Source: an uncultured Helicobacteraceae bacterium
GTDB taxonomy: Bacteria; Campylobacterota; Campylobacteria; Campylobacterales; Sulfurimonadaceae
Length of the DNA stretch: 58,928 bases
Direction of reading: 5' to 3'
Assembly (NCBI GenBank): GCA_947311765.1
Contig: CAMZLS010000018.1
Coordinates: forward strand, 1-58,928
Of this stretch, positions 5,009 to 20,600 are shown piece by piece (the first letter of the stretch is position 1; every line of letters starts with the position of its first letter). The position numbers and the translations under genes are program-made. A model generated the notes under the pieces. It was given only the letters and a program-made list of their open reading frames with translations, was not told where the DNA came from and searched no databases.

Positions 5009-5806
5009 TTATTTTAAAAGAGCATTTCTCTCTTTAATAAAAGAGACTTCTTCATCCCAAAAAGTTGGTAGATGAGAAAAGTCTCTATTTGTTATGTAGA
5101 GATTTGTGATATTTTTCTGATTTGCCTCTTGTATAACTGTTCTCATGGTATCTGCATCTGGTATTGTATGGAGGATAATATGTAGTTTTTCATAATCAAG
5201 ACCAACATACTCAGTGCTATTAAATTCATCCCAATATTCGTAATAATTCTCAAATACTAAAAAGTCATCTGCTGTTGATTGTTGAATAAAATCCTTTTGT
5301 ACACCAGAAGAGTTCAGCATAACTTTTTTTACCGAATCGAAAGATTTTGCATAGTTGGTAATCTTATTATAATAATCTGTAAATTGCATATCACCATTGA
5401 CTTCGTCAAAGAAGATGCCGTCAATATCAAAATGATTAGCATAGGCAAGAACATCTGTCTTGACATCTTCTATGTCACGTGAGCCGTTTGTTGTTTCTAC
5501 ATATGCCAATATGCTTGCATTGCCTTCTCGAAGTTTTTTGAGTCCAAGAGTATAATTACTGTTTGGAGTACCAACAGGCGCACCATCTTCGCGGATTACG
5601 CCAAAGATAACAGTTAGAGGAGTCCCGCTAGAAGCCTCTGCTACTGCATCCCATATATTTCCAATAGCATTTTGTTTGTCAGTAGGCTCACTATATAAAG
5701 GAACTAAAAGTTCAGTCGGTGTTGGCTTTGGAGCACTTTTTGAGTCTGTTGAACCACATCCGAGAGAAAATAGGGTCAAAATTAGGCTAAGGTATTTTAT
5801 AATCAT
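5009..5806 (-). CDS. Spherulation-specific family 4 (GH135-like) lipoprotein A
   Basis: About 265 residues from ATG 5806, with a lipoprotein signal peptide ending FSLGC (Cys17). The longer open frame adds 33 unlikely residues. The mature part resembles the Spherulin-4 family, a TIM-barrel group that includes GH135 endo-alpha-1,4-N-acetylgalactosaminidases. Visible motifs are ELLVPLYSEP near the N terminus, ILAYVETTNGSRD and DIDGIFFDEVNGD, the last holding the expected acidic residues. The family's usual N-P-x-x-G motif is not evident here, unlike in the neighbour at 5835, so activity may differ. It is divergent from that paralogue with only 28 bases between the start codons. Inference: outer-membrane-anchored hydrolase that trims or modifies the polymer made by the adjacent Pel-like operon. 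Confidence 0.72.
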   Translation of the reverse strand: MIIKYLSLILTLFSLGCGSTDSKSAPKPTPTELLVPLYSEPTDKQNAIGNIWDAVAEASSGTPLTVIFGVIREDGAPVGTPNSNYTLGLKKLREGNASILAYVETTNGSRDIEDVKTDVLAYANHFDIDGIFFDEVNGDMQFTDYYNKITNYAKSFDSVKKVMLNSSGVQKDFIQQSTADDFLVFENYYEYWDEFNSTEYVGLDYEKLHIILHTIPDADTMRTVIQEANQKNITNLYITNRDFSHLPTFWDEEVSFIKERNALLK

Positions 5807-5834
5807 GAAATAATTATACACTAAAAGAGTAACA

Positions 5835-6647
5835 ATGTTTCGTAAAAGATATTTTTTAAGCTTTTTCTTGGTTTTTGTGATAGCTTTTTGTGCTAGTGCC
5901 TGCAAAAGTTCGTCTGAGTTTGGCAGTAAAGAGATGGTTTCGCTACTTGTCCCATTTTACATCTACCCAACAACAATAAATCCTCAAACAGGAAATCTCT
6001 ACTGGAGTGATCTTGCAAAGAGTTCCTCAAATATTACAAAAATAAGTGCTATCATCAACCCAAATAACGGTGATCATGGAAAATATTGTGATGAAAATTT
6101 TAAAAAGGGAGTGAGGCAACTCAAGGCATCTGGAATATCTGTTTTGGGTTATACATATACAAAATATGCTCATAGAGATCAGGCATTGATAGAAAAAAGT
6201 GTTGATTTTTATAAAGATAAGTATCATGTGGATGCTTTTTTTCTTGATGAGGCAAACAGCTCTCAAAGAGCAATGCTTTATTATGAAGAGTTGCGAGCGT
6301 ATATAAATAAAGATGCTTCAGATAGTGAGATAGTGCTTAATTATGGTGTAAAACCAGATGAAAAAGTTATAAAAAATGATAAGATGAAAAGTGTTGTTTT
6401 TGAAGGGGAGTATAAAACTTTCATCAGTGATAAAAATCGAATAGTATCAAAATTGTCTCAAAAAAATAGTGTATGCTTCGTTTATAATGTTGCAAGAGAA
6501 AAGATGAAAGACACCATTGATTTAGCAATTGCAAAAGGGTGCGCACAACTTTACCTTACTGATGATTCAGGAGAAAATCCTTGGGATACGCTTCCAAGTT
6601 ATTGGAATGCAATGTTGTCGTATATAAACAAGTTTAATTGGCTATAA
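5835..6647 (+). CDS. Spherulation-specific family 4 (GH135-like) lipoprotein B
   Basis: A 270-residue protein with an N-terminal hydrophobic signal and probable lipidation Cys23 (CASAC). It shows the canonical Spherulin-4 pattern: SLLVPFYIYPTTINP, IINPNNGDHG, VLGYTYTKYAHRD and DAFFLDEANSS. The family is a TIM-barrel glycoside-hydrolase clan; GH135 enzymes cut alpha-1,4-linked galactosamine-rich polymers. It reads toward, and ends 46 bases before, the Pel-like operon, which makes it a plausible substitute for the hydrolase domain of PelA. It is clearly paralogous to the divergent gene at 5009-5806, though the two are quite diverged. Confidence 0.78.
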   Translation: MFRKRYFLSFFLVFVIAFCASACKSSSEFGSKEMVSLLVPFYIYPTTINPQTGNLYWSDLAKSSSNITKISAIINPNNGDHGKYCDENFKKGVRQLKASGISVLGYTYTKYAHRDQALIEKSVDFYKDKYHVDAFFLDEANSSQRAMLYYEELRAYINKDASDSEIVLNYGVKPDEKVIKNDKMKSVVFEGEYKTFISDKNRIVSKLSQKNSVCFVYNVAREKMKDTIDLAIAKGCAQLYLTDDSGENPWDTLPSYWNAMLSYINKFNWL

Positions 6648-6648
6648 T
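6643..6648 (+). promoter_or_regulatory. Candidate -10 element for the Pel-like operon
   Basis: TATAAT overlaps the stop codon of the upstream Spherulin-4 gene and is followed by a T-rich stretch; a second weaker candidate (TATAAA) lies about 20 bases further on. Campylobacterota promoters depend mostly on the -10 box with poorly conserved -35 regions, so this is a reasonable but unproven start for the 6694-15924 operon. Confidence 0.35.
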
Positions 6649-6693
6649 ATTTTTTTAATTCAATTATAAAATTTTTCATAAATAGGGTCTTAT

Positions 6694-7986
6694 ATGTCTA
6701 AAATATTTTTGCTATTTTCTTTAAGTTTTTGTACCTTTCTCTTACATGCAGATGAAGCTATGAGTTATACATTGCAAACATATCTATCTGAGTTGCTAGA
6801 AGAAGATTTAGAGTATAAAAATCGAAATCTTGATGCCAAAGTGACTCTGATAAACTCTCTATTAGAGCAAAATCGTTATAATCCAAATATCTATTTAGGG
6901 GGAGAAGTTCAAGCATCGAGGGCTTTGGATTTTTCAAGAGGAATTTCTCGAGTAGAGATGAAAGCACTTGGGAGTATTCATCTTAATATGCATCTTTATG
7001 ATGCACAGCATAATACTTATATGAATACAAGAAAAGATATTTTTCAAGACTTGAGTGCTTTAAAACTTATTGATGCTAAAGAGCAGTTGCAACTTTTAGG
7101 CATTGGTATATATGTTGAACTTTTACAGATACAAAGAACAATCAAGCAATACAATATTTTATTAAAATATCAAAATATTATTACAGATATAGCACTGACT
7201 CGTGCTTCAAAAGGTTTAGGAGGTATTTATGACAAAACACAGGCGCAAAACGATCTTATTAATATTCAGTTGCGTTTAAGTGATTTGAAAGAGTTGCTTA
7301 TACAAAAAGAATACCTTTTTCGTCAGTCTATTAATTTAGAATCTGGAGCTCCTCTTGTCTTAAAAGATATTGAGTATACAAAAATTACAAGTTCTTTGGA
7401 AAACTTACAGCATGCAGCAATACATAATAATGCACGCTTACATGTAAAAGAGAAACAATATGAGTTAGCACAAAGCGATATAAAACTTGAAGTTGACAGA
7501 AGGGGACTTGGAATAGATTGGACATCTCATCTTGGATTTGGTCATGCTGAACAGTTAGATTCTCCTTATCGTTCAAGAGATGGTGAAGATTGGCAAGTGC
7601 TATTAAGTATAAACTATCCTCTTTATGAACGCGGCGATATATCAATGAAAGTACAAGAGAAAAAAATTCAAGCCTTGCAGTCAAAAAATAATCTTGCCAT
7701 TGAAAGAAGGTTGCTCAGTAGAACAATTAATCGCCTTTACAATTCTCTTCAAAAACATAAAATAAAACACCAACTCTACGCACAGCAAAAAGATGTGCTT
7801 CTTGAGAGAATTACCATTACATATAATCGTTATAAGGAAGCACTAGAAACGTATAAGCCTTATTCAGATTCTCTTCGGGATATGGCTATGAGCGATGAGG
7901 CTTATATACGAAATTCACTTTTACTTGATATGAATACTTTAGAGTTGCATATTTTAACTGGGGAGAAGTTATTTGTCTCGCATTAA
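6694..7986 (+). CDS. TolC-like outer-membrane efflux protein of the Pel-like locus
   Basis: A 430-residue protein with an N-terminal signal peptide (cleavage near LLHADEA). Long heptad-rich helices carry the TolC/OEP pattern of paired repeats: the segments around residues 40-70, 120-210 and 300-420 are coiled-coil-like and separated by short beta-rich stretches such as IYLGGEVQ and WQVLLSINYPLYERG, the latter a typical outer-membrane strand. It is the first gene of a tight operon with pelF and pelG homologues. Canonical Pel systems use PelB and PelC for outer-membrane passage and neither is visible here. I infer that this channel exports the polymer or works with a periplasmic adaptor. The stop overlaps the pelF start. 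Confidence 0.75.
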   Translation: MSKIFLLFSLSFCTFLLHADEAMSYTLQTYLSELLEEDLEYKNRNLDAKVTLINSLLEQNRYNPNIYLGGEVQASRALDFSRGISRVEMKALGSIHLNMHLYDAQHNTYMNTRKDIFQDLSALKLIDAKEQLQLLGIGIYVELLQIQRTIKQYNILLKYQNIITDIALTRASKGLGGIYDKTQAQNDLINIQLRLSDLKELLIQKEYLFRQSINLESGAPLVLKDIEYTKITSSLENLQHAAIHNNARLHVKEKQYELAQSDIKLEVDRRGLGIDWTSHLGFGHAEQLDSPYRSRDGEDWQVLLSINYPLYERGDISMKVQEKKIQALQSKNNLAIERRLLSRTINRLYNSLQKHKIKHQLYAQQKDVLLERITITYNRYKEALETYKPYSDSLRDMAMSDEAYIRNSLLLDMNTLELHILTGEKLFVSH

Positions 7987-9475
7987 AGTAGCACTTACGG
8001 GAGAGGGAACATACCCTTATGTGACAGGTGGCGTAAGCACTTGGGCTGACCTTATTGTGAATGAGCTTAAAAATATTGATTTTGTTTTAATGCCTATTTT
8101 GATGCATCCTTATGTAAAATTGAAATTTGAAATTCCAAAAAATGTAGTAAAACTTGTAAAAATTCCTCTATGGGGTACGGAAGAGCCTACTGAATATGTA
8201 AAAGAGATAGATTTTTCAGATACCTATCAGATGAAGATAAAAACCAAACAAGAGTATGAGGCACAAAAAAAGTTAATAGAAATTATAGAGGTATTATTAG
8301 ACTTTATCTATAAAAAAAATGATGATTATGAGATGCTTGGTGATTATATTGTAGAGTTTCATGATTTTTTTATCACCTTTGACTATCATGAATCTTTTAG
8401 ATCTCCAGAAGTATGGGATGCGTATAAGAAAAAGTTACAAAAAGTTTTGGATTTGCAAGAAGAAGATTTACCAACAGTCCATGACATGATAGAAGGTCTT
8501 CGTTTTTTATATCGTTTTTTTATAACACTTTTAGCTCCTGTAGAGAAGTGTGATATTTACCACTCTTCTGCTGCTGCGTTTTGTGGTCTGCCTTGTATTA
8601 TTGCGAAGAAGAAATATGGAAGTAAATTTATCTTAACCGAACACGGTATATATGCTAGAGAGCAGTATCTTTTTGCTTCAAGAGAGGGTGTGCCCGTTCG
8701 TACAAAAGAGTTTTTATTAGGACTTATCTATATGATTGTAAAACTTAATTATCATTTTGCAGATGTGATAAATCCTGTTTGTGATTATAATAAACGCTGG
8801 GAATTACAGTGGGGAGCTAGCGAAGAAAAACTACATACTATCTATAATGGTATAGATACTTTTATATTTAAAAAGATGGAACGCAAAAGTAACCAAAGAC
8901 CTACGGTTGTTATGGTTGCTAGGATTGATCCTTTAAAAGATATTGAGACCTATATCAAAACATGCGCAAAAGTAAAAGAAGAGATACCTAATGTGCTTTT
9001 TAAATTATATGGTCCTATAGTAGATAAAGATTATTTTGAGCTATGCCATAAGATGTATGAGACACTTGAACTTAAAGATAATTTTGAGTTTTCAGGATTA
9101 ACAAACAATCCTTCACTTGCTTACAATGAAGGCGATGTGGTTATGCTGACAAGTATTTCTGAAGCTTTCCCTTTTGTTGTTATTGAGGCAATGGCATGTG
9201 AAAAAGTTGTTGTTTCATCTGATGTTGGAGGCACTAAAGAGGTGCTTGAAGGATTTGGATCAGTTATTCGTCCAAAAGATATCGAAGGGTTTTCAGATGC
9301 AATAGTGAATGTTTTAACAAATAGATATGAAAGTGCAGAGATGGGAGTATTAGCAAGAGAGCATATTTTAAACGGATTTACGATTGACGATATGGTTGAA
9401 AATTATCAGAAACTATATACATCCTTATATATGCAAAAAGGACAAAATAACAATGCAAATGGGATTTACTTTTAA
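7973..9475 (+). CDS. pelF: PelF-like family 4 glycosyltransferase
   Basis: A 500-residue cytosolic GT4 enzyme. The N-terminal VALTGEGTYPYVTGGVSTWADLIV strongly resembles PelF (positions about 6-29). The C-terminal half holds the nucleotide-sugar domain with VVMVARIDPLKDIETYI and the E-x7-E motif SEAFPFVVIEAMA at Glu397/Glu405, followed by SSDVGGTKEVLEG. PelF polymerises UDP-N-acetylhexosamines into the Pel polysaccharide. The start is a TTG at 7973, placed 6 bases after a GGGGAG ribosome-binding site and overlapping the preceding gene. The stop overlaps the pelG start as TAATG, so translation of the two is coupled. Confidence 0.9.
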   Translation: MSRIKVALTGEGTYPYVTGGVSTWADLIVNELKNIDFVLMPILMHPYVKLKFEIPKNVVKLVKIPLWGTEEPTEYVKEIDFSDTYQMKIKTKQEYEAQKKLIEIIEVLLDFIYKKNDDYEMLGDYIVEFHDFFITFDYHESFRSPEVWDAYKKKLQKVLDLQEEDLPTVHDMIEGLRFLYRFFITLLAPVEKCDIYHSSAAAFCGLPCIIAKKKYGSKFILTEHGIYAREQYLFASREGVPVRTKEFLLGLIYMIVKLNYHFADVINPVCDYNKRWELQWGASEEKLHTIYNGIDTFIFKKMERKSNQRPTVVMVARIDPLKDIETYIKTCAKVKEEIPNVLFKLYGPIVDKDYFELCHKMYETLELKDNFEFSGLTNNPSLAYNEGDVVMLTSISEAFPFVVIEAMACEKVVVSSDVGGTKEVLEGFGSVIRPKDIEGFSDAIVNVLTNRYESAEMGVLAREHILNGFTIDDMVENYQKLYTSLYMQKGQNNNANGIYF

Positions 9476-11049
9476 TGCTAAAATCAAAAGAAGAGTTACT
9501 AGAACTTTATAATATTATTACAAAAGATAAAGGGAAACCATTAGATCATTGGGAAATAACAGCTTTGCTTGAGACCTATGGTTTGCGTGATGTGGATGCG
9601 TTTAATGAGTATGGTGTCGAAAATTTATTTGAGCTAGCAGATTATTTAGTACCCTTTATTAATACTAGAGATGATTATAAACTCCACTCCATACAGACTA
9701 TTCATGAGAGCAATATCTATAAGCGTGTATTCTCTAACTACATAAAAGGTCTAGCATTTTCAGTACCTATGCTTATTCAAATTATTTCTACCTTAGCTGT
9801 TGGCTATGCTCTTTGGTCTTCTATCCATGCTGGTAACGCAAGTGCTACTGCTGTGTCATTGGGCACTTTTGCCGCCTTGGTTGTTACGGGAGGCTCAGTA
9901 CAAGCTATTGGGCGTAAAGGACTTTTCTATTATAAGATGGGAGAAAATGTATTAACAAAAAATGTTACCTTACTGTTATATGGGATAGGAGTAGCTTTGA
10001 TAGTTTTTTTCTTACTATTTATGAGTGTTGTAAATTTCTTTTTCAATATATATCCATTGGATTTGTATCTTATGAGCATGGGGTATTATCTGCTTTTAGC
10101 ACTCTTTTTTCTAACACTTTCTATCTTTTATATCTTTGAAGATTATCTTTCTATTGTTCTTGTAACATCTGCTGGACTGCTTTTTGTTTATCTTTTTCGT
10201 ACTGTTTTTCATAACTCTTTGGTCTCTTCTCAGATGTACGGACTTATTATGCTAAATATTTTTGTAATGTTTGTAGCGTTTGTAAAACTACTGCGTTTGA
10301 AAGACAAAAATGGCTCTGCTGAAGGAGCAAATCTCCCTAAAGCATCTATTCTTTTTTACTCTTTGCTTCCTTATTATGGATATGGCCTCTTTTATTTTTC
10401 TTTTTTAATTGTTGATAGAATTATTGCATGGAGTGCTGATGCGGAGCACAATCCTTACATCGTTTGGTTTAATGTAAGCTACGAGCTTGGCTTGGACTGG
10501 GCATTGATATCTCTTGTTTTAATGATGGGGATAACGGAGGTAAGTATAGCTGAATTTATGTATAGACTCAACGATCGTGTTGTGAAGAGATCTTTTCTTG
10601 AAGCAGAAGCTTTTAGCAAAGAGATTTATCAATTTTTTAAAAAATTCAATATAGCTTTTATGCTTTTTTCTATACTTGTTATATTGGCAACTTTCTTTTT
10701 TATGTATTATTTACATGTAAATCTTCGCATAGAGTTTGTTGAAAATTTTATGCGCCAACCAACTATGGCAATTTTTATAATAGCTTCTATAGCCTATTTT
10801 TTGCTTGTGAATAGTTTAATGAATATCTTACTAATGTTTTCACTATCTAGGCATCATGTTCCCGTGAAAGCAGTAGGATATGGGCTTTTTGTAAATATTT
10901 TTGTTGGTATGATTCTTAGTCGTGCTTTTGGTTATGAATATGCTGTTGTTGGTCTATTGTTAGGTTCTTTGGTCTTGTGGATAGTCGTATTTCGTGAGAT
11001 TATGGCTATGTTTAAAAATTTAGATTATTATTATTATTCGGCGTATTAG
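9475..11049 (+). CDS. pelG: PelG-like polysaccharide transporter/synthase membrane subunit
   Basis: A 524-residue protein with about 12 membrane segments after an unusual soluble N-terminal region of roughly 85-100 residues rich in acidic and aromatic residues. Pattern and position immediately after PelF identify it as PelG, a Wzx/MATE-like inner-membrane partner of PelF. The membrane region opens FSNYIKGLAFSVPMLIQII and includes GTFAALVVTGGSVQAIGRKG. The N-terminal extension is longer than I expect for PelG and may replace contacts normally made by PelD or PelE. The gene shares a TAATG junction with pelF. Confidence 0.82.
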   Translation: MLKSKEELLELYNIITKDKGKPLDHWEITALLETYGLRDVDAFNEYGVENLFELADYLVPFINTRDDYKLHSIQTIHESNIYKRVFSNYIKGLAFSVPMLIQIISTLAVGYALWSSIHAGNASATAVSLGTFAALVVTGGSVQAIGRKGLFYYKMGENVLTKNVTLLLYGIGVALIVFFLLFMSVVNFFFNIYPLDLYLMSMGYYLLLALFFLTLSIFYIFEDYLSIVLVTSAGLLFVYLFRTVFHNSLVSSQMYGLIMLNIFVMFVAFVKLLRLKDKNGSAEGANLPKASILFYSLLPYYGYGLFYFSFLIVDRIIAWSADAEHNPYIVWFNVSYELGLDWALISLVLMMGITEVSIAEFMYRLNDRVVKRSFLEAEAFSKEIYQFFKKFNIAFMLFSILVILATFFFMYYLHVNLRIEFVENFMRQPTMAIFIIASIAYFLLVNSLMNILLMFSLSRHHVPVKAVGYGLFVNIFVGMILSRAFGYEYAVVGLLLGSLVLWIVVFREIMAMFKNLDYYYYSAY

Positions 11050-11059
11050 GAGTTTTGAT

Positions 11060-12241
11060 ATGAAAAAGATGTTTATTGCAAGTGTTGCAGTGTTTTTGTT
11101 ACTCGGATGTACACAAAAAAATTTAGATATTAGTGATGTAGAAAAAGAGTTACAAGCAGAAGATAAAACAGTTATTTATGATATAAAAATGCAAGATATA
11201 AGCCAAACGCTTGAAGCGAGTATCTCTAAGTTTTCAAAGTTTCCATTTATATCAGAAGCAGTGCGTAGTGATTTTAAAGGACATTATTCTCCAGAGTTTT
11301 ATGCCAAGCATTCTGTTTCTCTGCATGCACAAAGAATGGATAGAGTTGATTATTGGAGTTTACAAAAAGATTTTAAGAGTTTAGATGTTATCTACACAAA
11401 AGCAATCTGGATAAATCAATACAAGCAAGTTAGTAATGATGTATTCGTTAATCTGAGTTATGCGCATAAACTTTCTACTAAAGAGCAGAAAGTTTTACGA
11501 GATTGGATTGCTCAAGGTGGTGTTCTTTGGATAGAAAATGGCTTGTATGCAACAGGAAATGAGTTAAGTGTTCCTGCATTGAAGTCTGAAAATCTAAAAT
11601 TTTTAAATTTTCAAGTTTCACCTTGTACCTATGATAATACAAAAGAGTTTGTTTTTACAGATATGAAAAGTATTGCACAATTACATCCTCTAAAATCGCT
11701 TGAGTTATTAGTAACAAAAAGGAAGCAGATACATTATATTTTAAAAGGAAAAGTACTTGTAAGTTCATCTAAAAATCCTCTAGTCTCACTTAATGAGTAT
11801 GGAAAAGGAAAGATCTTTTCTCTACTTCCTTTTGAATATACAAGTCTCTATCGAGATGGAGAATTTTTACGCTGGAAACTTTTAGAGATCATAAAAAATA
11901 ATACAAAAGTAGTAGGACTTCAAGCAGAAAAACCAATCAAAAAAGAAGTGCTCAAGGTAGAAAAAAAAGATACAAAAGAGATACAAAAAGATGAAACTTT
12001 AAAAACTTCTCCTCAAGAGGCTTATTGTATTCAACTTTTTAGTACATATGTATATAAAGATGCCAAAAAAGAGATGCTCTATTATAAAAATTTCCCACTC
12101 TCACGAATTGAAAAGCGAAAAAAACAGTATGTTGGTCGTGTTGGTATGTATGAGCATTTTAAAGAGGGACTAGGAGATTTAGAAAAACTACAAAAAATCT
12201 ACCCCAATGCCTTTATGCGTCGCTGTCACTACTCGAAGTAG
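11060..12241 (+). CDS. Lipoprotein with GATase-like fold and C-terminal SPOR-like domain
   Basis: A 393-residue predicted lipoprotein (signal peptide ending FLLLGC, Cys17). Residues about 90-290 look like an alpha/beta domain of the class-I GATase/DUF4159 type: IYTKAIWINQY, then LRDWIAQGGVLWIENG and YGKGKIFSLLPFEY. A Lys/Glu-rich linker (about 295-325) leads to a last 70 residues that look like a SPOR domain (AYCIQLFSTYVYKDAKKEM and YVGRVGMYEHFKEG). SPOR domains bind denuded peptidoglycan glycan strands. I infer a periplasmic or outer-membrane scaffold that ties the export machinery to the cell wall. It follows pelG by 10 bases and precedes the next gene by 4. No canonical Pel gene matches it. 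Confidence 0.65.
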   Translation: MKKMFIASVAVFLLLGCTQKNLDISDVEKELQAEDKTVIYDIKMQDISQTLEASISKFSKFPFISEAVRSDFKGHYSPEFYAKHSVSLHAQRMDRVDYWSLQKDFKSLDVIYTKAIWINQYKQVSNDVFVNLSYAHKLSTKEQKVLRDWIAQGGVLWIENGLYATGNELSVPALKSENLKFLNFQVSPCTYDNTKEFVFTDMKSIAQLHPLKSLELLVTKRKQIHYILKGKVLVSSSKNPLVSLNEYGKGKIFSLLPFEYTSLYRDGEFLRWKLLEIIKNNTKVVGLQAEKPIKKEVLKVEKKDTKEIQKDETLKTSPQEAYCIQLFSTYVYKDAKKEMLYYKNFPLSRIEKRKKQYVGRVGMYEHFKEGLGDLEKLQKIYPNAFMRRCHYSK

Positions 12242-12245
12242 ATAG

Positions 12246-14438
12246 ATGCTTATTGATACGGCTATAATGAGTGATGTCTTTGAGACATCTTTATGGAATT
12301 TTTTCAAACTATCTATAATGAATTTTGTATTTTTTCATTGGATACCAAAGAGGGTATTTCCTCAGTTTATGATAAAAGATAGGCTTGATAATGTGATGTT
12401 GAATATTCTCTATATGTTAGGGTTTGTTATGCTGAGTGTTCCTATTTTGATTCAGTTTCATATTTTTTCTCTCCCTCTCTTTTTATTATTATTGCTACTA
12501 TTAAAGGTGTATTTTTTACATCGCTTTGAGAAGAAACGTTTTTTTGATGTAGCTATTGATTGGTTTCGAGAATCGCTGATTGCAGTATTGGATTATATGG
12601 ATAATTTTCATCTTAAGCAAAAAAAAACTTTTAAAGCAGGTCCTAGCAATTATCTCTCGAAAATAGAAAAAAAACTTTCACCCGAATCACTTCAAACACT
12701 TTTAATATTTCTAGTATTTGGATATATTTTATATCTAGTCTCTCTTGGTGGATTTATTAGCTACGCAGATGCTGTTCCTGATACGGCCCAGTTTGTAGAG
12801 TGGGTTAATACCATGCAGAGCAATGTTCTCTTTAAAGATCATAAAACTGCAGGTGCAGACTTTTTTGGACAGGCAACAATTGTCTTCTTTTTTCAGATGA
12901 TTAGCCATATTGACTCTATTGTTTTATTTAATATATACCCTATTTATTTAGTGTTTTTTCTTCTTTTTGGTCTCTATTATGTTGTTTATAAGATAACAGA
13001 TTCTAACTACAGCGCTTTTTTTAGTGTTGCACTTTTTGGGATAGTTCTTTTGTCTCCTTTGGCAGATACATTTTTAGGCTATATCTATATAAGTACAAGT
13101 CCACCCCTAACAAGTATGTATGGATTTAATTTCTATCTTTTGTGGGATGATGAAGTAAGCAAGGAGATGTTTAAAGAGTTTATCTCTAATCAGCATATAC
13201 CTTATGAGCGTTATGCTGCTGGACTTGCTTATGAATTTGCCTCTTCAATGTTTCTTATCAATAACTATTTTATAGCAAAAAGTTTAGTGACAAAAAGTAA
13301 AGCTTATATTTTTCTTTATGGATTAACGCTCTTTTTGGTATTTGTATTTCATGGGGGAGGCGCTATTTACCTTGTCGTTTCCAATGCCTTTATCTTCCTA
13401 GCTGCCATAGTATTTAGACAGCTAAGCTGGAAAACTTTTAAACAAGGTCTCTTTATCATTGCTATAGCTTCTGTGCTGGGAAATCTTTGGATGCTCTCTG
13501 TTATTAAATATGGAATTCCTCAAGACTTTGGGGCAGCAGCACCTTTTTTAGATAGTCTGTTTGAGACAAAAGAGAGTGTTGCAAATGTAGCTGATGGTGG
13601 AGAGATGGTTAGTTTTGTCGTGACAAATAGCGTGCAGATGTTTATGGTTGTATGTATGCTTTTTTTACCTCTCTTTGCACTTTTTACAAGGAAAAAATTT
13701 CTTTTTCTCTCAATGAGTTTGAGTGTAATTGCTGTTTTATTAATATATTTTGCGGCTAATCTTGGTCTGCCTCGTGCTGCAAAACAGTTTCGTGCAGCGG
13801 AGTATCTTCTTTTAGTGTATGCTATGGGTTTTGGCTTCTACTTTTCTCTACTTATCGCAAAACCATTGGAATTTTTAAACTCACGCATTGCAAAATATAG
13901 TGCCCTTTTGGTAAGCGTAATGATTCTAGCGATTATTATTGTGCAAGTACCTAGATGGATTGATAGTAAGCGTTTTATGGAAATTACTAACTCTTTGGAA
14001 TACAATAACCTTGCATATATGCTATATAAATTATCGCAAGAAAATGAGCCTTTCACTTGGACAATAGTATCTTATGTGCAATCGTATCCTAAGGTTTTAG
14101 GAAAAGGTTTTCATATTAACACTCCTGTTTTTTTATTAAAGTTTGACCCAAGAGAGCATTTTTTGAAGATTGGTATGTCCGAAAAAATATTTATATTTGT
14201 TGAAAATAAACCAAATTCATATATGGGAACACACCAGTGGTACTATAGATGGCGTCCTGAAATTCAAGGAAAACTTAAAGAATGGATTAGCATCTATCAG
14301 ATGTTCCACAACAATATCTCTATCTATTATCAAAACAATATTGTGAGTATATACGAGATTGATAATAGAGAATATGTAGAGTATGAGACAAAAAGATTAA
14401 AAAAGCTCAAGGAGAGTAAACGCAATGCAAGCGATTGA
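12246..14438 (+). CDS. Large multi-spanning membrane protein of the Pel-like locus, function unknown
   Basis: 730 residues with about 12-14 hydrophobic segments between residues 15 and 570, then a hydrophilic C-terminal region of about 150 residues rich in aromatics. I do not recognise a named family. The size, many helices, long loops and soluble C terminus are reminiscent of GT-C-fold glycosyltransferases or O-antigen-polymerase-type proteins, but no diagnostic DxD-type first-loop motif is clear. The loop near residues 170-185 (SYADAVPDTAQFVEW) contains acidic residues worth testing. It starts 4 bases after the SPOR-like lipoprotein and overlaps the HD-GYP gene, so it belongs to the operon and may take the place of PelE. 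Confidence 0.6.
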   Translation: MLIDTAIMSDVFETSLWNFFKLSIMNFVFFHWIPKRVFPQFMIKDRLDNVMLNILYMLGFVMLSVPILIQFHIFSLPLFLLLLLLLKVYFLHRFEKKRFFDVAIDWFRESLIAVLDYMDNFHLKQKKTFKAGPSNYLSKIEKKLSPESLQTLLIFLVFGYILYLVSLGGFISYADAVPDTAQFVEWVNTMQSNVLFKDHKTAGADFFGQATIVFFFQMISHIDSIVLFNIYPIYLVFFLLFGLYYVVYKITDSNYSAFFSVALFGIVLLSPLADTFLGYIYISTSPPLTSMYGFNFYLLWDDEVSKEMFKEFISNQHIPYERYAAGLAYEFASSMFLINNYFIAKSLVTKSKAYIFLYGLTLFLVFVFHGGGAIYLVVSNAFIFLAAIVFRQLSWKTFKQGLFIIAIASVLGNLWMLSVIKYGIPQDFGAAAPFLDSLFETKESVANVADGGEMVSFVVTNSVQMFMVVCMLFLPLFALFTRKKFLFLSMSLSVIAVLLIYFAANLGLPRAAKQFRAAEYLLLVYAMGFGFYFSLLIAKPLEFLNSRIAKYSALLVSVMILAIIIVQVPRWIDSKRFMEITNSLEYNNLAYMLYKLSQENEPFTWTIVSYVQSYPKVLGKGFHINTPVFLLKFDPREHFLKIGMSEKIFIFVENKPNSYMGTHQWYYRWRPEIQGKLKEWISIYQMFHNNISIYYQNNIVSIYEIDNREYVEYETKRLKKLKESKRNASD

Positions 14439-15924
14439 GAATGTCCGCTATTTTTTAGATGTTATATTTCCAAAAAGCATTTTAGATACATTATATGTCA
14501 TAGATGCTTTTATGAGTTCTACAGTAGCCTGGATACTTCTATTATTTTTAATAATTTCTCTGTATTGTCTCTATATATTTATGAAACGACTTGCAAAGGC
14601 TCATGAATTAGAACAAGGTTTAGATGAAATTTTACTTTTGAGTGCAAGAGCAAGCTCTGTAAATGAGCTCTATAATAATTTTATTAATCTAGGTTTATAT
14701 TTAGGGGGTGAATATATTGTTATGTACCAGCTTCAGGGTGAAACTTATGTTTTATTAACAGCTAATATTGATTTAAATAGCGACAACTCACCCGTAGCAG
14801 CATCCTTACATGTAAGCAAAAGAGAAGTCAAGGAGTTTCATGATTCAGGAAACTATAAAATCATCACATACAAAACAGAAAATGAAAAATACCTTCTCTC
14901 TCTTTATGCTAGAAATGAGATTGATATCAGACGCTATGAAGGAAAAATTGAGTCTCTTTTTTCACGATACGCTTCACTTAAAAATAGTGATGAAAACAGT
15001 ACAGAACTCCAGTTAGCTAAAACATCAAGACTGCTTTTTGACACTATAAACGGAACCCGTTTTGGTGATGATGGTTACATGCGCTATCTCTTATCAATGG
15101 TAAAAAAAGTCATTCATGCACAACAGGTAAAACTTTTTTCTAAAAATCAACTTAAAATTGAAATCGGAGATTGCGCTGAGTGTCTTACAAAAGTGTTTTA
15201 TATTCGTAATACAAGCTACAGAGTTGAGATTGGAACGCTAGAAGAGATTAGCATACATAATCAAAGTACAGTAGGCTCTTTTTTAGATTTAACGGGTGTT
15301 TTTATGTCCACATTAAGCCAAGAGGGTGCAATCGCTAAAAATTATATCACTTTCTTAGAAGAGGCAAATCATTTATTAGAAAGTGAAGATGAGTTTAAAA
15401 AGCTACATAGTGAAAAAGTTACTACCGTCTCTCTTGAAGTAGGCAAAGTACAATTTTTAACAACTCAAGAACTCAGTGCTCTCAAACATGCCTCAAGACT
15501 TCATGATATAGGCAGTATTACTAATTTGAATGATTTAATTGAAGAGGGGCATGATATAAATGAAAACTATAAACTACACCCATTGATAGGATCTATAATC
15601 CTAGAACCAGTTGCTAATATTTATCCTATAGCCTCTATTATAAAATACCATCATGAACGCTATGATGGAAAAGGCTATCCTTTTGGTATAAAAGGAGACG
15701 CTATTCCAAAACTTGCACAGATTTTAGCTCTTGGGGAATACTATATTGGACTCATTAGCAATCGTTCATCAAAGCAAGCTTATACTCATGATGAAGCGAT
15801 AAAGTTAGTGGCGAAAAGCTCAAACAAGATGTTTGAAAAAATTATCGTTGACTCTTTCTTGAGTGTTCATGAAAAAATCAATAAGAAAATAATACAACTA
15901 GAGCTGAAAAATTCTAAGCCTTGA
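14425..15924 (+). CDS. Membrane-anchored GAF-like/HD-GYP-type protein, HD-GYP motifs degenerate (PelD analogue?)
   Basis: 499 residues. A membrane segment lies at about 30-52, a GAF-like alpha/beta region at about 60-190, a second such region at about 205-310 and an HD-GYP domain from about 325. HD-GYP landmarks present are His328, H360-D361 (LHDIG), a later LHPLIG, and H409-H410-E411 with D414-G-x-G417-Y418-P419. Deviations are HDIGS instead of HDIGK and GEYYIG at 437-442 where active members have an Asp-containing ADxxDA segment. Active HD-GYP domains hydrolyse c-di-GMP; these changes suggest binding without efficient hydrolysis. As last gene of the operon it may act as the c-di-GMP receptor, as PelD does with a degenerate GGDEF. 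It converges on the deacetylase gene with an 11-base overlap. Confidence 0.75.
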   Translation: MQAIENVRYFLDVIFPKSILDTLYVIDAFMSSTVAWILLLFLIISLYCLYIFMKRLAKAHELEQGLDEILLLSARASSVNELYNNFINLGLYLGGEYIVMYQLQGETYVLLTANIDLNSDNSPVAASLHVSKREVKEFHDSGNYKIITYKTENEKYLLSLYARNEIDIRRYEGKIESLFSRYASLKNSDENSTELQLAKTSRLLFDTINGTRFGDDGYMRYLLSMVKKVIHAQQVKLFSKNQLKIEIGDCAECLTKVFYIRNTSYRVEIGTLEEISIHNQSTVGSFLDLTGVFMSTLSQEGAIAKNYITFLEEANHLLESEDEFKKLHSEKVTTVSLEVGKVQFLTTQELSALKHASRLHDIGSITNLNDLIEEGHDINENYKLHPLIGSIILEPVANIYPIASIIKYHHERYDGKGYPFGIKGDAIPKLAQILALGEYYIGLISNRSSKQAYTHDEAIKLVAKSSNKMFEKIIVDSFLSVHEKINKKIIQLELKNSKP

Positions 15925-16717
15925 GCCCATATTGCAATAGTTTTTCTAACTTATTTTGCGTGACTGAAGTCTCTGCAAAAGCGAGAATATAGGCTATATT
16001 TATCTTTATATCTTCTCTCATCGAGAGAGGCATATATCTACCTTGCATCTCATAAGGGTGTGTATAGATGATAGGTTTATGAGCTTTATTTAGTAGTGAT
16101 TTCATTAAAATTTTATGGAGCACAAGAGGCAAAACACGCAGATAAAAACCACCACTAAAAGGAAGCAGAGATTTTAAAAGTGGAATCTCTCTGATTGTAC
16201 CAGAATCAGTTGTAATTTCAAAAGGTTCTTTTCTATCAATACTATTTCCATACATGTAAGTTTTAAAAGGGAAGTATGAAGAGCTATAGCTATAGCCCTC
16301 TTGCACAAGTGCTTCATAATATTTTTTTTCAAAAGGAAGCGACCAACTAGCACTACGATACCCATTAATCTGTTTTTGTGTGGTATTTTCTAAAATTTTT
16401 TTTGATTCAGAGATGGAATTTTTAAAAGAATCAAAAGTGTCTTCGTAAACAAGATTGTGTTTAAGCCCATGAGAGGCTACTTCATGCCCATTGAGGCTAA
16501 GTTTTTCTATAGATTTTGGAAATTTTTTTGCAAAACTACCTAGAACAAAGCAGGTTGATTTTATCTGCCACTGTTCACACTTCTCTATCCATCTATCAAT
16601 AATATCTTCATAATCTATCTTTGGGCTAGAGTGCATGCTAACACCAAAGTTTGCATCTTGAAGTTGTTCGACATCCATGGTAAGCCAGAGTGGATATTTT
16701 TCATATATATGACTCAT
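15914..16717 (-). CDS. Polysaccharide deacetylase (CE4, exosortase/EPS-associated type)
   Basis: 267 residues from ATG 16717. The longer frame is read through the neighbouring membrane-protein gene and is rejected. The NodB-type domain shows WLTMDVEQ (catalytic/metal Asp), STCFVLGSFAKKFP, SLNGHEVASHGLKH (metal-binding His pair) and GYRSASWSLP. The tail with PIIYTHPYEMQGR is the DUF3473-like extension seen in EPS-cluster deacetylases. Likely role: N-deacetylation of an exported aminosugar polymer, a step done by the second domain of PelA in canonical Pel systems. The start overlaps the end of the upstream flippase-like gene, so the three genes 18530-15914 form an operon. Confidence 0.85.
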   Translation of the reverse strand: MSHIYEKYPLWLTMDVEQLQDANFGVSMHSSPKIDYEDIIDRWIEKCEQWQIKSTCFVLGSFAKKFPKSIEKLSLNGHEVASHGLKHNLVYEDTFDSFKNSISESKKILENTTQKQINGYRSASWSLPFEKKYYEALVQEGYSYSSSYFPFKTYMYGNSIDRKEPFEITTDSGTIREIPLLKSLLPFSGGFYLRVLPLVLHKILMKSLLNKAHKPIIYTHPYEMQGRYMPLSMREDIKINIAYILAFAETSVTQNKLEKLLQYGLKA

Positions 16718-17643
16718 ACTAGTAACTCTTTGAGAGAGAGTTTTTTTCTCTGTATGATCATAAGAGAGACAATAGAAGAGGGTAAGACCATAATCAACTG
16801 CAGCACAATACTCCCTATAAGTGCTTCCTCTTTTGTGATACCGTACTGGGTTAAGATAAAAATAATCCCTGCTTGGAATGTACCACTGCCAGCAGGAAGT
16901 AGTGGTATAGAAAATGCGATAAAAGAGACCATAGTCGCAACAAAGAGCTGTGTAAAGCTTAAGGGTAAATCCATAACCGCATAAAAAAAGAGCATGGTGG
17001 TAAAGATGTACGAAAACCATAAAAGTGCGGACCAGAGACTAAGTGTTATTACAGATTTTTTTGCAAGAACAATCTGAAAATGGTGATAAAGACGAATGAG
17101 CCATTTTCTTAAAAAAGTAGTAGGTATCCAATGGATTAATTTTCGAGAAACAGGGTGCTTTATCAAGAAAAAGAGCGTAACAATACAAAAGACACTGAGC
17201 CATCCAAGCATCTGTATCTTCACATCATTCCAATAAATCTGTGCACTAATAACAACAAGAATGCCAAGGACTAAAACATCAAAAAAACGCTCCGTCAACA
17301 TTAGCGAGAAGCCGTGCGAAAGTTTTGTGTTATAGAGCTTTTTGAGATAAAAAAGTTTTGCAACTTCACCAAGTTTAGCAGGAAGTAGGGTGTTTGTTAA
17401 GACAGAAAAGACAATAGATTCAAAAGAGGCTTGCAAAGAGCAACTATTTTGTGAGAGTGAACGCCAACGCAGTGCTAAGACAAAGTCACTTCCGATAACG
17501 CTTAAGATACTCACGCTAAGCCAAAAAAGAGAGTATGAATTTAAAGCAGGCAGTAAAAGCGAGACCTCTATATCATGAAAAATATAGTAACCAAGCCCAA
17601 AAAGCACAATGGTTTTAAGCAGTAATGAGAAGATTTTTTTCAT
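16714..17643 (-). CDS. Flippase-like (YbhN/UPF0104, lysylphosphatidylglycerol synthase TM-domain) membrane protein
   Basis: 309 residues with about eight membrane helices. Family landmarks are LALRWRSLSQ after the second helix, NTLLPAKLGEVAKLFYLKK, MLTERFFDVLVLGILV and PLLPAGSGTFQAGII. Members are implicated in lipid or lipid-linked-sugar translocation, often in exopolysaccharide or glycolipid clusters. It overlaps both neighbours (4 bases at its start with the FemAB-like gene, 4 bases at its end with the deacetylase), pointing to translational coupling. Confidence 0.8.
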   Translation of the reverse strand: MKKIFSLLLKTIVLFGLGYYIFHDIEVSLLLPALNSYSLFWLSVSILSVIGSDFVLALRWRSLSQNSCSLQASFESIVFSVLTNTLLPAKLGEVAKLFYLKKLYNTKLSHGFSLMLTERFFDVLVLGILVVISAQIYWNDVKIQMLGWLSVFCIVTLFFLIKHPVSRKLIHWIPTTFLRKWLIRLYHHFQIVLAKKSVITLSLWSALLWFSYIFTTMLFFYAVMDLPLSFTQLFVATMVSFIAFSIPLLPAGSGTFQAGIIFILTQYGITKEEALIGSIVLQLIMVLPSSIVSLMIIQRKKLSLKELLV

Positions 17644-18530
17644 AAATCAGCTAGATATTTTGTAAGATTTGGTCCAAGTCTGTCAACAAAGAAACGCGGT
17701 AATTTTTTCCATATATTTGAGGCAAGAGAGTATTTGTTGTAGATATCTTCTGCGTGCGGTTTTATAAGATCTATCTTGATAGGGGTTGCTCCAAATTGTG
17801 ATTTAAACTTATAGGTGGGTCCATTGTAGGGAGAGCGACCAAAATCAAACACCTCTATATCAAATTTTTGTGTAACTCTTTTGATGATTTCAAAGTAGAG
17901 AAAATAGCCTGCAAATTTTTTCGTATAACTCTCTTCTACGCCTCCCCATGGGCAACAGGCAAGCTTTCCATCTATGCAGGTGGACATGGCGGCAGCTGGT
18001 CTATTATTTTCATCATAGACGACAAAAAAGATAATATCATCTTGCAAGTTTTTTTGCATATTGTAAAAAAGCTCTTTTTTAAGCATAGGCGTACCATGAC
18101 GATAGTATGTCTGTGAAACGATGGTATAAAAATCTTCAATACACTCACTACCCTCACGTAGGGTATAGTTGTAGTTTTTATGAGATTTACGAACCTTATT
18201 ACGACATCTCGATTTTAAAAGCATCATCAGATCTTCGCTCTTATTTGACTCTATAGCAAGTCGCATTGTAACGGGGTCGTTATCTTTATAAGAGGTATAT
18301 TGAGGATTGAGTGTGCGTATAAGATAGTTACTCTCTTTGGCAAGTTCTTGTAAGTCCTCAATAGAGTCACTTGTTCGGTCTGTATAGTTGATAAAAGGCA
18401 GATAGCTAAGAGTTGGTTTTGATGTTAAAGAGGGAACAACAAGAAAATCCATATACATCTCATACCCGTATGTATCTTGAATGGTTTGTCTAAATTTTTG
18501 TATATATTCTGGTGTATGGATGCGTGTCAT
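17640..18530 (-). CDS. FemAB-like/GNAT-fold acyltransferase of an exopolysaccharide cluster
   Basis: 296 residues resembling the FemAB-related proteins that accompany EPS/exosortase gene clusters. Diagnostic segments are the N-terminal YGYEMYMDFLVVPSL, RNKVRKSHKNYNY before the acyl-CoA domain, and FDFGRSPYNGPTYKFKSQFGA near residue 245. The family transfers amino-acyl or acyl groups, but the acceptor here is unknown. It is first gene of the minus-strand operon FemAB-like, flippase-like, deacetylase. A 70-base region separates it from the divergent glycosyltransferase at 18601, which must hold both promoters. Confidence 0.75.
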   Translation of the reverse strand: MTRIHTPEYIQKFRQTIQDTYGYEMYMDFLVVPSLTSKPTLSYLPFINYTDRTSDSIEDLQELAKESNYLIRTLNPQYTSYKDNDPVTMRLAIESNKSEDLMMLLKSRCRNKVRKSHKNYNYTLREGSECIEDFYTIVSQTYYRHGTPMLKKELFYNMQKNLQDDIIFFVVYDENNRPAAAMSTCIDGKLACCPWGGVEESYTKKFAGYFLYFEIIKRVTQKFDIEVFDFGRSPYNGPTYKFKSQFGATPIKIDLIKPHAEDIYNKYSLASNIWKKLPRFFVDRLGPNLTKYLADL

Positions 18531-18600
18531 TAGTAACCTTAAAACTTTGTTTGCTATTATATCGATCTATTATTAAAAATACTTTATTTTTGGAGGCTTT

Positions 18601-19284
18601 ATGAGTAAAAAAATTGCTGTTGTTATTGCCATGTATAATGAGTCGCAATCGATACAGTCTGTATTGAAATCTCTACGGGAAGTGCGACCTGATGATATGG
18701 TTATAGTTGTAGATGATGGCTCGGCAGACAACTCTTGTGAAATGGCAACGAAAGTTGAGAGGATTCATCTTTTAAAGCATATTTACAACTTGGGACAAGG
18801 TGCAGCTTTGCAAACAGGCATAGAGTATGCGAAGCGCTTAGATGTTGATTATGTTGTCACATATGATGCTGATGGACAGCATAATCCCCACGATATAGAA
18901 CCTTTCGTTAAAGAGATGCAAGAGGGTGATTATGATATTATCCTAGGTTCTCGATTTCTTGGCAAGACAGTCAATATGAGCAAAAACAAATATTATGTCT
19001 TGAAGCTTTCTATCTGGTTTGGCTATCTTTTTGGTGGTATAAAACTGACTGATTCACATAATGGGTTTCGGCTTATCAATATTGCAAAATTTCCATCCTT
19101 CGAGATGACACAAAATGAGATGGCACATGCCTCTGAGGTGATTGATATTATCAAGGCAAATGATCTTCACTATAAAGAGATGCCTTGCACTATCACTTAT
19201 ACCGACTACTCAATGGAAAAAGGGCAGTCGATTTTCAATAGTATCAGTATTATGATGCAGTATCTTATAGGAAAGGCACAGTAA
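18601..19284 (+). CDS. Family 2 glycosyltransferase (dolichyl-phosphate-mannose-synthase-like)
   Basis: 227 residues, GT-A fold. The N-terminal AVVIAMYNESQSIQSVLKSL, VVDDGSADNS and the metal-binding YDADGQHNPHDI are typical of polyprenyl-phosphate glycosyltransferases, as is GSRFLGKT. No C-terminal membrane helices are present; the following DUF2304 gene probably provides the membrane anchor, a common pairing. An excellent ribosome-binding site (GGAGG) precedes ATG 18601. It overlaps the next gene by one base. Likely role: making a lipid-linked sugar donor for the envelope glycan. Confidence 0.85.
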   Translation: MSKKIAVVIAMYNESQSIQSVLKSLREVRPDDMVIVVDDGSADNSCEMATKVERIHLLKHIYNLGQGAALQTGIEYAKRLDVDYVVTYDADGQHNPHDIEPFVKEMQEGDYDIILGSRFLGKTVNMSKNKYYVLKLSIWFGYLFGGIKLTDSHNGFRLINIAKFPSFEMTQNEMAHASEVIDIIKANDLHYKEMPCTITYTDYSMEKGQSIFNSISIMMQYLIGKAQ

Positions 19285-19607
19285 TGATAGCAATAAAAAT
19301 AATTTTAATTCTTATGTTTAGTATCGCAATTTTAGTGATTACTCTCTCTGAAAAATATAAAACACACAAGCGTTTTTTGGCTTTGCTTTTGTATGCTAGT
19401 GCAGTCTTGATGATAGTTTCACCTCGTATTGCCGACACAGTTGCAAACTGGTTTTCTATAGAGTATGGCTCTGATTTGGCTGTGTATCTCTCTATTGCTA
19501 TTTTGATTATGTTTGGTGCGATTAACTTTGCTCGTGGCCATAGACAAGGACGCATAACAACAAAAATTATACGAGAACTTGCTATAAAAGACGTGAAAGT
19601 AACTTAG
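19284..19607 (+). CDS. DUF2304-family small membrane protein
   Basis: 107 residues with three hydrophobic helices (about 5-20, 32-48 and 68-84) and a basic tail. Length, topology and position directly after a GT2 gene match the DUF2304 family, thought to assist or anchor the neighbouring glycosyltransferase. The start shares one base with the upstream stop. It ends at a hairpin shared with the convergent HlyD gene. Confidence 0.75.
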   Translation: MIAIKIILILMFSIAILVITLSEKYKTHKRFLALLLYASAVLMIVSPRIADTVANWFSIEYGSDLAVYLSIAILIMFGAINFARGHRQGRITTKIIRELAIKDVKVT

Positions 19608-19621
19608 GAGTTACCTTTCAC
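19593..19621. terminator. Inverted repeat between convergent genes, probable bidirectional terminator
   Basis: GTGAAAGTAACT pairs with AGTTACCTTTCAC around a 4-base loop, with one bulged base. It covers the two facing stop codons of the DUF2304 and HlyD genes. No long T-run follows, so termination strength is uncertain. Confidence 0.5.
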
Positions 19622-20600
19622 CTATATCCGAATTTATTTCTACGATTTTTTGCTCTTTTTTATCTATAAAAAACTTTTTTACTTTGTCTTGGTACTCTTT
19701 TTTGAGTCCAATTTTCACCATTGCTCTCATGCCATCTTGCAAGATATAATCACGATTTTCAAGAGCTATATCAACAACCATTCTTCCTAATTCAGGATCT
19801 ATTATAGGTACGATTTTGGTGATATTTGCCTCAACACTGTAAGGCGGCGTAACGATAAAATCAATATGAACACTATCTCCCTTATGAATAAAAGGATATA
19901 GCCCTGATGCAAGGCCTGCTTTTACAGTCACATTGCTAATATTTATAATTGTTCCCATATTAGAGTATTTTGCTACTTGAGCGCCTATTTTGATATGAGA
20001 ATTTACAAGGTAGCCATCATAGTCACTTGCAACAGTTGCATTTTTGATTTCATATTGGATTTTTTGAAGTTGGGATTTTTTATCATCAAGCAACATAAGT
20101 AGACTGTCTCTAGCTTTTTCTTGATTCAAAGCCCTATCTGTAGTAATCTCTTTTTGAGCATAATACTCTTTTTTTGCATTAAATAACTCTGCTTGTGTTG
20201 CATATCCTTGAGCATGAAGTGCTGTAATCTTTTCAAGGTACAATTTTGTATTATTTCTTATGTATTGATTGTCTTGATATTTATTGTCTGCGTCAATCTG
20301 TTTTTCTAAAATTTTAATCTCATTTTTTAATTTTTTGATATCAATTTTGGAATTTTTTAGATCAAATTGATATAAAACATCACCTTTTTTTACGACGGAG
20401 CCATTTTTCTTAAAAACCTTACTTATCTCACCCTCGAAAGGAGAGAGGATATCTTGATTGATGCTTGGGTAAACAACTGCCTCGAGTTGTATGGTGATGT
20501 TTTTATCATCTTTTACAAGTTGTTTTTCTTCAATGCTTTGAGCGCAACCTATAAAAATGAGTGTTGTAATGGTTAATGTTAAAAGATATAATAGATTCAT
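19611..20600 (-). CDS. HlyD/RND-type periplasmic adaptor lipoprotein
   Basis: 329 residues with a lipoprotein signal peptide (LIFIGC, Cys19). The biotinyl-lipoyl half-motifs SPFEGEISKVFKKNGSVVKKG (about 56-76) and ASDYDGYLVNSHIKIGAQV flank a coiled-coil hairpin of about 100 residues, then a beta-barrel region (ANITKIVPIIDPELGRMV). Adaptors of this class join an inner-membrane pump to a TolC-like channel. No pump gene is adjacent. The nearest TolC-like protein is the one at 6694, raising the possibility that this adaptor serves it. It is convergent with the GT2-DUF2304 pair. Confidence 0.8.
   Translation of the reverse strand: MNLLYLLTLTITTLIFIGCAQSIEEKQLVKDDKNITIQLEAVVYPSINQDILSPFEGEISKVFKKNGSVVKKGDVLYQFDLKNSKIDIKKLKNEIKILEKQIDADNKYQDNQYIRNNTKLYLEKITALHAQGYATQAELFNAKKEYYAQKEITTDRALNQEKARDSLLMLLDDKKSQLQKIQYEIKNATVASDYDGYLVNSHIKIGAQVAKYSNMGTIINISNVTVKAGLASGLYPFIHKGDSVHIDFIVTPPYSVEANITKIVPIIDPELGRMVVDIALENRDYILQDGMRAMVKIGLKKEYQDKVKKFFIDKKEQKIVEINSDIGER

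Follow-up and report, generated by a model that had tools for sequence, protein, structure and literature searches.

A Pel-type exopolysaccharide locus with non-canonical partner genes in Campylobacterota

The stretch of DNA analyzed here, referred to as the window, comprises 58,928 nucleotides of an uncultured Helicobacteraceae bacterium (assembly GCA_947311765.1, contig CAMZLS010000018.1) and harbors a Pel-type exopolysaccharide locus, in which the genes coding for PelF and a divergent PelG are accompanied by partners that differ from those of the canonical pel operon. Its core consists of six near-overlapping genes on the plus strand (window 6694-15924). These encode a TolC-like outer-membrane channel (6694..7986; OEP, PF02321, 62 bits), the GT4 polymerase PelF (7973..9475), a divergent PelG of 524 amino acids (aa; 9475..11049), a lipoprotein with a C-terminal SPOR-like module (11060..12241), a 730-aa membrane protein of the GT-C fold that is a putative lipid-donor glycosyltransferase (12246..14438), and a membrane-anchored GAF/HD-GYP protein, which may be a receptor or a phosphodiesterase for cyclic di-GMP (c-di-GMP; 14425..15924; HD_5, PF13487, 74 bits). 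The reading frames listed in an initial annotation, made from the sequence alone, were all retrieved at or near the positions first assigned to them. Indeed, family matches, tight spacing and recurrence in 13 further loci indicate that the genes for the TolC-like channel, PelF, the SPOR-ended lipoprotein, the 730-aa protein and the HD-GYP protein are real.

An accessory group of six genes adjoins this core (window 15914-20600). It starts with three genes on the minus strand, coding for a CE4-type polysaccharide deacetylase of the DUF3473/XrtA type (15914..16717; PF01522 and PF11959; TIGR03006, 142.7 bits, below cut-off), a flippase-like (LPG_synthase_TM) membrane protein (16714..17643; PF03706, 125 bits; TIGR00374, above cut-off), the family name of which is no proof of flippase function, and a FemAB/GNAT-like protein (17640..18530; PF13480; TIGR03019, 114.7 bits, below cut-off). 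Two genes on the plus strand follow, one for a GT2 that is a PpgS-like candidate synthase of polyprenyl-phosphate-N-acetylgalactosamine (polyprenyl-P-GalNAc; 18601..19284) and one for a small DUF2304 membrane protein of 107 aa (19284..19607; PF10066, 45 bits). The last gene, again on the minus strand, encodes an HlyD/RND-type periplasmic adaptor lipoprotein (19611..20600; PF16576 and PF13437). Scans for promoters and terminators gave no excess over shuffled sequence.

A pattern-based scan of 84,980 species genomes, which distant relatives of the 730-aa protein may escape, retrieved 29 loci containing this protein, every one of them in Campylobacterota (Sulfurimonas, Nitratiruptor, Sulfuricurvum, Arcobacteraceae and metagenome-assembled genomes). 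The complete six-gene core was found in identical order in 13 further loci, all from Campylobacterota, indicating that the gene set is not due to chance; the remaining loci were partial, mostly at contig ends, or consisted of standalone 730-aa paralogues. A strict co-occurrence of these neighbors with pelFG in relatives was borne out by the neighborhood comparison that the initial annotation had proposed. Class-wide searches matched PelF (E <= 1e-60) in 5 of 298 genomes and the 730-aa family in 9 of 397. The tolC and pelF genes, the pelF and pelG genes, and the genes for the 730-aa and GAF/HD-GYP proteins overlap across relatives, and the other gaps are mostly short, such as the 1-30 bp between the lipoprotein and 730-aa genes in 21 loci. 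The gap between pelG and the lipoprotein gene was approximately 277 bp in three loci (L039, 7390-7668; L045, 8325-8605; and L040) and 3-61 bp in the others. In addition, all 12 genes, core and accessory, were present together in 11 fetched loci. One Arcobacteraceae genome carries the core alone (locus L055) and all six accessory genes together on another contig. Such joint inheritance of unlinked genes strongly supports a common function of the accessory and core groups. The hosts are sulfur-cycling Campylobacterota of vents and sulfidic zones; a literature search, covering open-licence papers, turned up no description of the present locus.

Concerning the synthesis core, the initial annotation had called both PelF and PelG clear. 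This holds for PelF, which scored 175.2 bits with NF038011, above the NCBIfam equivalog cut-off of 100, but was overstated for PelG, as the window protein did not match the PelG model PF16933 even at E <= 10. That model matched 16 of 19 PelG homologues (best E 2e-9), near its full length where coordinates were given; the two homologues with printed scores fell under the 29-bit cut-off. Furthermore, the AlphaFold2 model of the window PelG (pLDDT 80.7) matched MATE, MurJ and WzxE in Foldseek, representing the MOP/MATE fold. Based on its homologues and predicted fold, the 524-aa protein is probably a divergent PelG, acting putatively as a MOP-type translocase. A profile comparison of this family with three canonical PelGs gave nothing significant, neither the 524-aa nor the 730-aa protein of the window hit a Pfam or NCBIfam family, and searches of solved-structure profiles yielded no usable match for the families of PelG, the lipoprotein and the 730-aa protein. 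The window PelG possesses an extra N-terminal cytosolic domain, which also occurs in the PelF partners of Deinococcus, Streptomyces and Thermus.

The locus contains no recognizable PelA, PelB or PelD, in agreement with the initial annotation. Homologues elsewhere in the genome that could serve these genes were searched for as well; full-length PelA and PelB queries, the PelD model PF16963 and PF16933 retrieved nothing in the genome, which is 94% complete, PelC and PelE not being part of that search. The PelA query is able to find Campylobacterota PelA at 365-606 bits and PF16963 scores a known PelD at 89.6 bits, and the PelB query matched the Campylobacterota PelB of loci L070 and L071 through a more sensitive protein search than the one applied to the genome itself. 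Canonical pel operons do occur in the class, with over-threshold PelG in 16 of 298 genomes, and three fetched Campylobacterota loci carry pelC-D-E-F-G-A, PelB being recognizable in two of them (L070 and L071). In the PelF tree, one clade with support of 99/100 united the variant sequences. It was separate from the canonical clade (98/97), where the canonical PelF of Campylobacterota fell together with that of proteobacteria. Therefore, the locus was probably not derived from a resident canonical pel operon by exchanging parts, as far as PelF phylogeny can indicate. The tree does not discriminate between a grouping of the variant with canonical PelF and one with the Deinococcus/Streptomyces type. 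No genome of the class was seen to contain both variant and canonical pel, the counts being too small to infer mutual exclusion.

Export of the polymer may involve the TolC-like channel, the lipoprotein and the HlyD adaptor. The lipoprotein displays the lipobox LLGC and a conserved N-terminal domain without known fold; its SPOR match is weak when the window protein is taken alone (E 0.054), and close homologues carry two and four SPOR domains (L038, 1e-11; L039, 1e-31). The C-terminus of the lipoprotein is a SPOR module in the clade of the window and an OmpA module in the Sulfurimonas clade. Similarly, a SPOR-like module is located at the N-terminus of TolC in Nitratiruptor and others, and an SH3 module takes this position in Arcobacteraceae. 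A peptidoglycan-binding module is hence present in almost every system, with the exception of Sulfuricurvum locus L062, where neither TolC nor the lipoprotein carries a recognized one. This shift of the module between TolC and the lipoprotein suggests that both may act at one site, in one wall-spanning complex. TolC-like channels belong to tripartite exporters, and in locus L063 the HlyD gene directly adjoins tolC. No pump was seen beside the HlyD gene in the window, where its neighbors are housekeeping genes, nor in relatives, as judged by neighboring reading frames. TolC together with the HlyD adaptor, which lies outside the interval considered in the initial annotation, would explain export better than a one-to-one replacement.

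The 730-aa protein gave no consistent match in a Pfam and family search of 21 homologues. Its AlphaFold2 model (pLDDT 82.3, pTM 0.84) matched STT3, PglB, AftA and PMT in Foldseek (E 2e-6 to 3e-3, probability 1.00), all others being far poorer. The residues D179, Q182, F183 and W186 were invariant in the 21 homologues. A loop rich in lysine and arginine (11 K/R in positions 94-146) precedes the invariant Asp loop; according to the positive-inside rule, this would place the D179 loop in the periplasm, the side on which the catalytic acids of GT-C enzymes are located. Tandem copies of the 730-aa gene were found in two relatives (three at L049:7648-15636 and two at L058:6511-10541), and L010:13420-18010 contains two frame-broken look-alike copies that may be an assembly artefact. 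In Nitratiruptor-type genomes, a lone 730-aa paralogue is situated behind the gene of a secreted protein of approximately 415 aa, the pair making up a unit of two genes (L052:8755-12115, L053:8749-12121 and L057:6195-9576).

The accessory GT2 may supply the donor of this GT-C protein, as PpgS (NF058614) was its sole family match at E <= 1e-20, both in the window (E 1.4e-53) and in 10 of 10 relatives tested. Mycobacterium tuberculosis adds galactosamine (GalN) to arabinogalactan by means of PpgS, which works with Rv3632, a small membrane protein of 114 aa, and of Rv3779, a GT-C protein that then performs the transfer; the flippase and the deacetylase of this pathway have yet to be identified (PMC9671496, PMC3485146, PMC6487176). 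The variant shares with this pathway, and with three-component systems of a GT2, a flippase and a GT-C protein in general, a GT2 closest to PpgS with a small membrane protein beside it, candidates for the flippase and the deacetylase, and a GT-C protein, the class of which is assigned here by fold search only. It differs in being tied to a PelF/PelG operon and in having a GT2 that falls under the equivalog cut-off.

Two other explanations of this module have to be weighed. The GT-C protein, in the manner of an oligosaccharyltransferase or ligase, could attach the PelF/PelG glycan to an envelope protein, a lipid or the cell wall, the lipoprotein and TolC holding a cell-bound glycan. This would fit the oligosaccharyltransferases STT3 and PglB being the best structural matches, the SPOR, OmpA and SH3 modules pointing to the wall, and the FemAB-like gene of the accessory module. 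Nevertheless, it is considered unlikely, as AftA and PMT match the 730-aa protein too, a WWDYG-type oligosaccharyltransferase motif was not seen in its sequence, the adjoining lipid-phosphate-sugar synthase better suits a monosaccharide donor, and a TolC channel with a GH135 hydrolase implies an exported polymer. Alternatively, the GT-C, GT2, DUF2304 and deacetylase proteins could perform an independent envelope modification, for instance of lipopolysaccharide or protein, and merely travel with a Pel-like operon. The lone 730-aa paralogues beside a secreted hydrolase-like protein in Nitratiruptor and the unlinked GT2 group of the Arcobacteraceae genome speak for such independence. Yet every core locus has the GT-C gene inside its core operon, overlapping the HD-GYP gene wherever the latter is present, and the accessory set goes with the core even where the two are not linked, making this explanation improbable.

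As to regulation, the best solved relative of the HD-GYP domain is 4mcw/4mdz/4me4 (E 2e-27), and 15 homologues all retain H328, H360, D361, H385, H409, H410, D414 and the GYP motif. An equally invariant Glu, E438, stands in place of the last metal-binding Asp, and the Lys of the HDIGK motif is Ser in the window and Met in most relatives. The GAF domain of this protein received no Pfam confirmation. By analogy with PelD, which has a degenerate GGDEF domain, and given these substitutions, the protein may bind c-di-GMP and hydrolyze it weakly or not at all. A profile comparison with PelD gave no match.

This touches upon the claim of the initial annotation that the canonical functions are replaced one by one, Spherulin-4 taking the place of the PelA hydrolase, TolC that of PelB, the lipoprotein that of PelC, the 730-aa protein that of PelE and the HD-GYP protein that of PelD. 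Gene number and cell compartments agree with such a scheme, as does the search of the genome, from which canonical PelA, PelB and PelD were not retrieved. It cannot be upheld for the 730-aa protein, however, as a GT-C fold has no counterpart among PelA-E and does not make a stand-in for PelE or PelD. In addition to the missing profile relation between the HD-GYP protein and PelD, the lipoprotein showed no relation to PelA in a profile comparison, six more genes, among them the HlyD adaptor, go with the core, and in the PelF tree the variant stands apart from resident canonical sequences. Hence, a Pel-type locus with different partners was right in outline, and its one-to-one reading has little likelihood.

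The two Spherulin-4 (GH135-like) genes were described as lipoprotein genes at the head of the operon, and both match PF12138, gene A, for a putative lipoprotein, with 119.7 bits (5009..5806, minus strand) and gene B with 130.5 bits (5835..6647, plus strand). They are divergent and lie outside the invariant core. Gene A, listed as a frame of 5009-5905 with a TTG start that overlaps gene B, probably begins at an internal Met (around 5806), which leaves approximately 28 bp between the two starts (window 5806-5835). Protein A contains the acidic motifs FFDEVN and LVFENY at positions aligned with the catalytic region of Sph3. Protein B aligns to the solved Spherulin-4/Sph3 chains 5d6t and 5c5g and retains the DE and FE motifs; homologues of it occur at the operon head in L039, L050, L056, L064 and L012. 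Sph3 (Spherulin-4/GH135) is an endo-alpha-1,4-N-acetylgalactosaminidase that acts on acetylated GalNAc stretches (PMC8546845) and is able to disrupt Streptococcus intermedius Pel (PMC12345266). PelF and the Spherulin-4 motifs together point to a GalNAc-rich polymer, which would stay largely acetylated, given that a search for exported deacetylases of the PelA type retrieved none; for an alpha-1,4-linked GalNAc/GalN product, the Spherulin-4 neighbors provide indirect support. Clusters of the Sulfurimonas clade encode at their end a secreted hydrolase-like protein of 472 aa, no Spherulin-4 being seen there. Members of this family of approximately 472 aa (L042:17191-18609, L045:17203-18630 and L009:18423-19862) display the motifs FFDW, TNQGFR and YDMTESY, and the secreted Nitratiruptor protein of approximately 415 aa is homologous to them (E 1e-51). 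The L009 member has no Pfam or NCBIfam match, and the family is possibly a new glycoside hydrolase family. Similarity of the 472-aa protein to the PelA hydrolase region was weak (11% probability) and gives no more than a hint of a relationship.

Taken together, we regard it as an even call that the locus encodes a separate Pel-type machine, with TolC/HlyD export and lipid-carrier glycosylation of a GalNAc-type polymer. Gene content, family assignments, folds and co-inheritance are what the analysis establishes, whereas the chemistry and decoration of the polymer, its export route and control by c-di-GMP are inferred. In this machine, cytoplasmic PelF would build a polymer of the GalNAc type, to be moved over the inner membrane by the divergent PelG with its MOP fold. 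The PpgS-like GT2 and the DUF2304 protein would load a sugar, probably GalNAc, onto polyprenyl phosphate, CE4 possibly deacetylating it to GalN, whereafter the flippase-like protein would turn over the lipid-linked sugar and the GT-C protein would attach it to the polymer on the periplasmic side. The HlyD adaptor, the peptidoglycan-anchored lipoprotein and TolC would replace PelB and PelC in carrying the polymer through the wall and the outer membrane. Finally, the membrane-bound GAF/HD-GYP protein would bind c-di-GMP and, standing in for PelD, control the complex, and the Spherulin-4 lipoproteins would trim the polymer. A bolder version, namely a separate Pel lineage in which a PelF/PelG polymer passes through an HlyD-TolC conduit, is glycosylated in the periplasm by the GT-C protein with polyprenyl-P-GalNAc or GalN, and is controlled by an HD-GYP receptor, is put forward tentatively.

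Several points weigh against the machine outlined above. Firstly, PelB, PelC and PelE functions are no more than candidate roles of the proteins encoded here. Secondly, the TM-scores of the GT-C matches are low (0.29-0.39), so that they indicate the fold class of the 730-aa protein and not its donor, acceptor or substrate, and the full-length GT2 match of 181.7 bits lies below the PpgS equivalog cut-off of 370, so that the donor sugar is a presumed one. Thirdly, the deacetylase lacks a signal peptide (nine sequences aligned) and is therefore unlikely to deacetylate an exported polymer. Fourthly, the GAF/HD-GYP gene is missing beside the core of Sulfuricurvum L062, and a search of the same genome retrieved no full-length copy, indicating that this protein is not always needed. 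Lastly, Spherulin-4 is present in some loci only, and Pel biofilms of Pseudomonas aeruginosa are not disrupted by Sph3 (PMC12345266).

In the Gram-negative Pel loci described to date, export depends on a dedicated protein of the TPR/beta-barrel type, and PelD is the receptor. With canonical Gram-negative Pel (pelABCDEFG), including that of Campylobacterota (L070 and L071), the variant shares adjacent genes for the GT4 PelF and a distant PelG in the same order, but it has no PelA, PelB or PelD homologues, has TolC/HlyD in place of PelB/PelC and an HD-GYP protein in place of the degenerate GGDEF, adds a GT-C protein with a putative lipid-donor module, and belongs to a separate PelF clade. Gram-positive Pel, such as that of Bacillus cereus (pelDEADAFG) and S. 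intermedius, also has altered PelFG partners, a separate hydrolase gene and a receptor domain for c-di-GMP that varies or is absent (PMC7112168, PMC12345266). Gram-positive Pel retains PelD, PelE and the PelA deacetylase, whereas none of these is recognizable in the variant, which has an outer-membrane channel. With tripartite HlyD-TolC exporters, the OEP channel and the HlyD_D23 adaptor are shared; unlike in those exporters, no ABC, RND or MFS pump was seen beside the variant genes, and the inner-membrane partner would be PelG.

The PelF loci of Deinococcus, Thermus, Streptomyces and Kocuria plasmids resemble the variant in that PelF is followed by a membrane protein of approximately 420-505 aa, which in Deinococcus, Streptomyces and Thermus shares its N-terminal domain with the window PelG. 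They differ in that TolC, GT-C and HD-GYP proteins are not annotated, several having sugar-nucleotide epimerases instead. In Streptomyces and Kocuria, pelF is flanked by genes for both Spherulin-4 and polygalactosaminidase, in Thermus by one for polygalactosaminidase. These loci apparently represent a further PelF system, of which we know no description. In the plasmid loci L032, L073, L030 and L031 (Streptomyces, Kocuria, Deinococcus and Thermus), the membrane partner is not annotated as PelG, and several encode secreted proteins of approximately 700 aa. The PelF neighbors of this size in Deinococcus, Streptomyces and Thermus were rejected as relatives of the 730-aa protein, given their signal-peptide-like starts, lack of transmembrane segments by hydropathy and lack of a profile match.

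If the proposed interpretation is true, the PelFG synthesis core would be a portable module, wired here to a TolC channel, lipid-carrier glycosylation and an HD-GYP protein, and a decorated GalNAc polymer would be predicted in biofilms of vent and sulfidic-zone Campylobacterota. Moreover, the locus would provide candidates for the flippase and the deacetylase missing from the mycobacterial galactosamine pathway, and a compact gene set to study flipping and deacetylation of lipid-linked GalNAc. In one relative (L046:19600-20613), a gene coding for a GalE-like sugar epimerase, as judged by its N-terminal sequence, adjoins the HlyD gene; an epimerase is likewise used in the galactosamine pathway of mycobacteria.

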